From positions 1 through 64,000 of the forward strand of contig CANMWT010000014.1 in NCBI GenBank assembly GCA_947501635.1: DNA of 64,000 bases, given 5' to 3'. This DNA comes from an uncultured Roseobacter sp. GTDB lineage: Bacteria > Pseudomonadota > Alphaproteobacteria > Rhodobacterales > Rhodobacteraceae. Positions within the stretch are counted from its first letter, which is position 1, and the number at the start of each line of letters is the position of its first letter. Below, in pieces: positions 1,808 to 10,386 of the stretch. The notes beneath the pieces are model-generated. The model searched no databases, had not been told where the DNA came from, and saw only the letters and a list, made by a program, of their open reading frames with translations. The translations under genes and the position numbers were made by a program.

Positions 1808-5944
<4,137 letters not shown>

Positions 5945-5949
5945 AAACG

Positions 5950-6117
5950 GTGGATTTGTTGCCTATTCTCGGTTTGGCGATTGGCGTTGCGTTCCTGCTC
6001 AGGAGCGTTATGCCAATACCACCCGAGAAACGGGTCAGACCCGTAAGCAACAGAGCCGTGGCTTTCATGATCGGTTTTATCATCGTGATAATCTCTGCCG
6101 ATCACCTCTTCTTCTGA
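5950..6117 (+). CDS. Small two-helix membrane protein in rpoB-rpoC spacer
   Basis: An uninterrupted 55-codon frame from GTG to TGA fills most of the 197-base spacer between rpoB and rpoC. The translation has two hydrophobic helices (residues 3-17, LLPILGLAIGVAFLL, and about 36-55) joined by a basic, proline-containing loop (PPEKRVRPVSNR), i.e. a hairpin membrane protein. GGAGGA lies at the end of rpoB, 15 bases before the GTG, which is long for a ribosome binding site; reinitiation after rpoB is possible. About 64 percent of third positions are G or C, slightly low, and AGA/AGG/ATA codons occur. I know of no family for it. It could be a real small protein or a chance frame; conservation would decide. 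Confidence 0.5.
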   Translation: MDLLPILGLAIGVAFLLRSVMPIPPEKRVRPVSNRAVAFMIGFIIVIISADHLFF

Positions 6118-6141
6118 TGTCCTTCATGTAAGGTGAAAAAA

Positions 6142-10386
<4,245 letters not shown>

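Follow-up and report, generated by a model that had tools for sequence, protein, structure and literature searches.

The rpoB and rpoC genes of the uncultured Roseobacter sp. considered here lie on a 64,000-nucleotide stretch of DNA, which was analysed as a whole and is called the window in the following. They are separated by a spacer of 197 nt between the rpoB stop codon (5942-5944) and the rpoC ATG at 6142, and the GC content of this spacer is 48%, compared with 59% in rpoB. A preliminary description of this DNA had reported a complete frame of 55 codons in the spacer, running from a GTG start to a TGA stop, and this frame could be confirmed at 5950-6117, with the TGA at 6115-6117. The features of the locus are collected in Table 1, together with the families of small genes that recur at the same place in other genomes.

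Table 1. Features of the rpoB-rpoC site in the window and families of spacer genes in related genomes
Feature	Location	Strand	Remark
55-codon ORF	5950..6117	+	Opens with GTG, closes with TGA; predicted miniprotein with two membrane helices, local occupant of the rpoB-rpoC slot
rpoB	1808..5944	+	Upstream flank of the slot; the listed frame opens at TTG 1772, ATG 1808 is the likely start
rpoC	6142..10386	+	Downstream flank of the slot; the listed frame opens at GTG 6133, ATG 6142 is the likely start
GGAGG	5929..5933	+	Shine-Dalgarno-like, within the last rpoB codons; read from the sequence
AAGGTG	6130..6135	+	Likely rpoC ribosome-binding site; read from the sequence
Imperfect inverted repeat	5966..6029	+	Within the window ORF; forms the core of the stable RNA fold; 37/52 aligned positions
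Second, small inverted repeat (ACGGGTCAGACCCGT)	6030..6044	+	Within the window ORF
Family A	rpoB-rpoC spacer of G008, G007, G279, G209
Family B	rpoB-rpoC spacer of G010, G197
Family C	rpoB-rpoC spacer of G003, G399, G276
Hairpin family H	Directly behind rpoB in G114, G317, G218, G129		Shortened in G129, with a single clear hydrophobic segment

The window opens at a contig end, and rplL is found on a different contig, C16, about 430 nt before that contig stops. The gap between rplL and rpoB measures 255-285 nt in four of the five congeners that were read, the fifth being not resolved, and a break or an insertion seems to separate the two genes in the window genome. Also 5' of rpoB, positions 303-1280 encode a secreted-looking protein of 325 aa that ends with VIPLPAGLPLLLAGLGGFAILRRWSSAKL, presumably resembling a C-terminal sorting signal of the VPLPA type.

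The peptide encoded in the spacer possesses two hydrophobic segments that flank a basic, proline-rich turn, and the loop contains PPEKRVRPVSNR. The helical hairpin with a basic loop that had been proposed was upheld by an AlphaFold2 model from the single sequence, in which two helices (residues 4-20 and 34-54; mean pLDDT 76.5, pTM 0.46) are predicted, with the hydrophobic stretches around the loop. The length of the ORF by itself is unremarkable, because dinucleotide shuffling of the spacer produced a closed plus-strand ORF of at least 50 aa 1907 times in 20,000. When two hydrophobic segments were demanded in addition, 5 of the 20,000 shuffles were comparable, in line with the earlier view that a frame with two transmembrane segments would rarely arise by chance; this criterion was chosen after the ORF had been seen and is therefore a guide rather than a strict test. 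Genes of the window have codon scores between 0.02 and 0.47 (5-95% range); the ORF, at 0.216 per codon, falls among them and exceeds the 95% point of shifted frames (0.02). This gene-like score is driven by the amino-acid make-up, and the score based on synonymous choices only is neutral and does not discriminate (-0.022). The distance from GGAGG to the GTG start is long, 16 nt compared with 7 nt where rpoB ends with GAGGAAGATGAGTGA, and TTG codons at 5956 and 5959 provide alternative starts.

Relatives of the peptide were sought widely. No convincing match was obtained in a scan of genome contigs, nor in plasmids, phages or viral contigs, and the comparison with 99 relatives returned, the own genome aside, only matches at E 0.12 and above. 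Also 238 genomes of the family contained no convincing relative; the best other match there (G200, E 0.007) was rejected, as it is part of a larger frame without an adjoining rpoC. Profile searches against Pfam, NCBIfam and PHROGs yielded nothing convincing (best E 0.065), and with no Pfam family match and a sole NCBIfam match at E 2.6, it was fair to call the peptide unreported-looking.

The recurring feature is the rpoB-rpoC site and not the window peptide. In 19 genomes of the genus, the spacer ranges from 53 to 451 nt. It is short in ten of them (53-91 nt), with a common leader, TTTCAAGGATTTGAAA, ahead of rpoC in place of the AAGGTG of the window, and in the nine others, the window genome included, it holds a small ORF and lacks this leader. 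The 18 congeners of the window genome thus have either a short spacer (10) or a different ORF in it (8). These genus occupants comprise membrane hairpins (G000, 55 residues; G015, 84; G011, 82; G006, 85), lipoprotein-like proteins (G008 and G007, family A; G010, family B; G003, family C) and a soluble-looking protein of 97 residues in G005. The spacer of G010 is the same as that in a contig named uncultured Roseobacter sp. 2-944-J. Next to this variable piece, the first 198 aa of RpoC are 96-100% identical in all 18 congeners. In a tree of the 19 genomes, calculated from the flanking rpoB and rpoC DNA, occupancy is not clustered, since its 6 changes are close to the shuffled mean of 6.6-6.7 and as few changes occurred in 198 and 222 of 500 shuffles; support for the tree is weak, with 6 of 16 inner branches at threshold, and these branches force just 3 changes. 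In G015, G006 and G011, frames of 97-99 aa that run from the rpoB stop were considered as occupants and rejected as shadow frames, because their full codon scores lie below those of the hairpin frames. The difference is slight in G015 (-0.001 versus 0.019), and synonymous codon scores fail to separate the two kinds of frames in these three genomes. The shadow frame is free of stops because the hydrophobic codons of the hairpin leave that frame without them.

Beyond the genus, 350 of 394 searched family genomes gave a match, and the 138 that were read are the best-scoring among the matches listed and are thus biased to nearer relatives. An occupant ORF is present in 16 of them and a short spacer in 120; one could not be read, and one (L274) has a long spacer that contains an rpoC-start copy, with two ORFs farther inside, which makes it the lone long spacer without an ORF close after rpoB. 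Among the 36 contigs that are nearest by RpoC after L051, one is occupied and four were not readable, and two of the 36 are identical in sequence to genomes among the 138. The occupancy counts exclude L051, which carries the spacer of G010, as well as G209 and G276, which came from a targeted search, and L088-L130 from other Alphaproteobacteria, of which a few spacers reach 150-220 nt. Unoccupied spacers of Rhodobacteraceae measured 43-128 nt where read, and one contig showed an overlap. The ORFs encode membrane hairpins, lipoprotein-like proteins or soluble proteins, and we are confident that this spacer is a slot for accessory genes.

Families A, B, C and H each occur in this spacer in more than one genus. 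All their members lie directly 3' of rpoB, and all but one were seen 5' of rpoC; the exception is G218, whose locus stops about 50 nt past the ORF, so that only its rpoB side is visible. In profile searches of 238-248 genomes each, strong matches (E below 1e-10) occurred in seven genomes, all in the spacer. Four of these (G279, G197, G114, G129) had already been in the query alignments, which leaves G209, G276 and G218 as independent cases, all three of them in the spacer. Weaker matches were obtained in 2 (family A), 11 (C) and 18 (H) genomes, and the four such loci that were inspected (both of A, two of C) are outside the spacer. A structure model of family A reached a mean pLDDT of 68.9, and no solved structure matched families A and C up to E 1.

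A common ancestor of all spacer hairpins was considered, but kinship was seen only for G114, G317 and G129 (z 8.7 to 25.3) and for G218, which is tied to these three through their profile search. The window peptide matches the family H profile weakly, with 6.0 bits, and 3 of 300 class-preserving shuffles scored as high in a test that covered four peptides including this one; its pairwise z values with G114, G317 and G129 are 0.0, 0.2 and 2.2, respectively.

Family A is under purifying selection at the coding level: in the pair G008/G007, mismatches are distributed over the codon positions as 23/12/50 of 94, and pN/pS is 0.31. The other family pairs have pN/pS values of 0.47-0.68, several of them with saturated synonymous sites. 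The pair G114/G317 of family H, with a pN/pS of 0.52 and a flat pattern of 16/10/13 of 63, gives weaker support for coding selection. These values bear on the view that the spacer merely tolerates insertions and drifts, its ORFs being neutral, short-lived and without a selected function. The patchy occupancy with its turnover, the singleton status of the window peptide and the flat pattern of the H pair all agree with such drift, but the selection on family A speaks against it, as does the fact that families remain recognisable at the same place across genera at 32-68% amino-acid identity. We regard drift as quite improbable.

A more direct challenge to the window ORF comes from the RNA. The minimum free energy of the spacer is -74.5 compared with a shuffled mean of -52.9 (z -4.6, 0 of 200 shuffles as low; z -5.75 and -5.15 when repeated against fewer shuffles), whereas 80 random gene segments of the window have a mean z of -0.04 and none reaches -4.6 or below. 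The reverse strand also folds well (z -3.5, 0 of 60 as low), which is palindrome-like behaviour, and when the codons of the ORF were permuted with the protein kept, 1 of 300 versions folded as low (z -4.4). The spacer thus folds better than both its shuffles and its codon-permuted versions, as a structured intercistronic RNA would. It could serve in intercistronic processing or balancing, or be a decayed palindromic repeat, and the ORF would then be fortuitous. Very stable stems right after rpoB in 3 of the 10 empty congener spacers (L033, L047 and L048, z -4.4, -5.3 and -4.9) point in the same direction, while the remaining seven have z values between -1.7 and 0.9. The rarity of two-transmembrane frames in shuffled spacers argues against a fortuitous ORF, and when the ORF was recoded from the codon usage of rpoB and rpoC, 8 of 300 versions folded as well. 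Rfam contained no match for the spacer up to E 1, and neither a second copy nor a related spacer turned up in the window and the loci compared. Moreover, strong folding is found in occupied spacers in general, with z of -2 or below in 16 of 24 compared with 2 of 24 adjoining rpoB segments (Wilcoxon p 0.0005; G209 and G276 are part of this set, and four spacers of at least 877 nt are not). As clearly protein-coding occupants share it, strong RNA structure may be a property of the slot. A structured RNA with a fortuitous ORF is the main rival to a translated miniprotein, and we consider it rather unlikely.

How the occupants are coupled to the operon was compared for 26 of them (9 + 16 + 1; the hairpin frame was taken for G015, G006 and G011, and the first ORF for G038). 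Their start codon overlaps the rpoB stop in 17 cases, and their stop overlaps the rpoC start (ATGA) in 14. The overlap with rpoB proves little, since an rpoB ending in GAGTGA supplies a GTG start as well as a GGAGG 7 nt ahead of it, so that the start comes free with the end of rpoB. Assessed by eye, the 26 include 7 hairpins or relatives, 9 proteins with a lipobox, 3 with a signal-peptide-like start and 7 soluble-looking proteins, some of 280-304 residues; hence 19 look membrane-bound or exported, as far as sequence reading by eye and a hydropathy sum can tell. Two further resemblances were noted by eye: a coiled-coil ORF family (RLDEQDASHDRLM.KVDRL) in the spacer of three genera (L227, L255, L274), and ORFs of about 300 aa in two genera (L286 of G435 and L227 of G038) with VLLVLTW and VLLLLTY, respectively, near the start. 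The tight coupling, the envelope-bound look of the majority and the strong mRNA structure would suit regulatory leader peptides that tune rpoC translation or tether the mRNA to the membrane. Such a role fits poorly with the short spacers that lack any such ORF in 10 of 19 genus genomes and 120 of 138 others, and with occupants that are unrelated in sequence and include the large soluble-looking proteins, and we think it very improbable.

The window ORF is, in our view, best explained as a translated membrane hairpin that locally fills an insertion slot in the rpoB-rpoC spacer, and we assign this reading a probability of roughly 0.6. The interpretation of the ORF as a membrane miniprotein in the preliminary description is thereby partly supported, and the short predicted membrane protein is probably real. 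On sequence evidence, the ORF is likely a translated occupant of the site, and this has to be weighed against the lack of a relative to compare, the neutral synonymous score and the distant ribosome-binding site. In the Rhodobacteraceae that were read, the spacer is either short or, L274 excepted, longer and filled by a small gene whose start lies close to the end of rpoB. Such a gene would be expressed along with the operon, and its product would be translated off the mRNA of the RNA polymerase subunits.

Scars in two genomes suggest how genes may be gained. In G038, the spacer (L227, 1740 nt) holds three ORFs in series, and a truncated copy of the rpoC start follows the first and the second; these copies are about 46-54 nt long with 1 and 2 mismatches in 36, and the first lacks the ATG. 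G369 possesses one copy, with 6 mismatches in 36, ahead of its ORFs. The scan covered 189 spacers, a set that leaves out those of G435 and G155; the remaining 187 had no such copy, and a reversed control query gave 0. These copies show that, in G038 and G369 at any rate, a gene was gained along with a new rpoC start. Among 248 family genomes, more than one rpoC-start match is found only in G038 (3) and G209 (2). The contigs C12 and C56 of G209 have four rpoB/rpoC matches and two rpoC-start matches, which may reflect a second rpoB-rpoC pair or a strain mixture.

As the flanks are very conserved, homologous recombination is a likely route. Incoming DNA would recombine through the rpoB 3' and rpoC 5' ends, either in an exchange by double crossover or through homology on the rpoC side alone, in which case the old rpoC start would be left behind as a scar. 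Gene transfer agents are known from Rhodobacteraceae and are a possible vehicle. A comparison of G279 with the genus in four rpoB windows gave no clear sign of a recent exchange of the flanks (G007 on top in one of four). No donor was found: viral contigs contained 0 rpoC-start copies, and plasmids gave a single weak match, to a Serratia rpoC. Family A was not found in viral contigs, plasmids or phages, families B, C and H not in viral contigs, and the hairpins of G006 and G015 not in plasmids. The occupant of L087, on a MAG contig, matches the phage protein family phrog_2072 (E 2.6e-38).

The most likely function of the cargo would be a strain-specific protection of the envelope, either by phage exclusion or by immunity to the toxin of a rival. 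We favour it because 19 of the 26 proteins have the look of membrane-bound or exported ones and because turnover is rapid, and even so, that the occupants guard the envelope is a tentative idea at low confidence. Known defence models do not back it, since a PADLOC scan of 10 cargo proteins left 9 without a match, the window peptide included, and gave a weak DarG match for L087 (E 0.0046). In a wider scheme, the rpoC start would be a docking sequence for gene capture without a dedicated recombinase, with cargo that mostly protects the envelope against phages or rivals. Foreign genes would arrive with their own rpoC-start copy, take the place of the spacer or lengthen it, possibly form arrays, and be expressed at once from the operon; deletion of the cargo would be risky, as both neighbours are essential. 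We consider this scheme unlikely.

A full-text literature search for the site and for small proteins located there returned nothing relevant, which is weak evidence of novelty, as most subscription journals lie outside it. Two papers that were consulted have no bearing on the rpoB-rpoC site: in PMC3359395, the subject is BamF, and in PMC10890935, RpoB and RpoC are mentioned solely as co-purified proteins. Both rpoB and rpoC serve as standard marker genes, and their operon is usually regarded as fixed. A slot in it would offer a clean spot to seek small unannotated genes and a natural experiment on the RpoB:RpoC balance, and it would supply envelope proteins with a possible guarding role against phages or competitors. 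It would also allow a singleton miniprotein to be judged by its site where conservation cannot serve.

In size, in their hairpin or lipoprotein form and in their fast turnover, the occupants resemble the small membrane proteins and lipoproteins of superinfection exclusion and toxin immunity, but they differ from these in matching no PADLOC model in nine of ten cases. The three serial ORFs of G038, the first two of which are followed by copies of the rpoC start, recall the cassette arrays of integrons; unlike in integrons, what is repeated is not attC but the beginning of an essential gene, and copies were seen in only 2 of 189 spacers. Chromosomal hot spots consist of variable genes between core genes, and the slot is like them in its conserved flanks, variable cargo and patchy presence. 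It is unlike them in that it mostly takes up single small genes, within one essential operon and in the same orientation as this operon.
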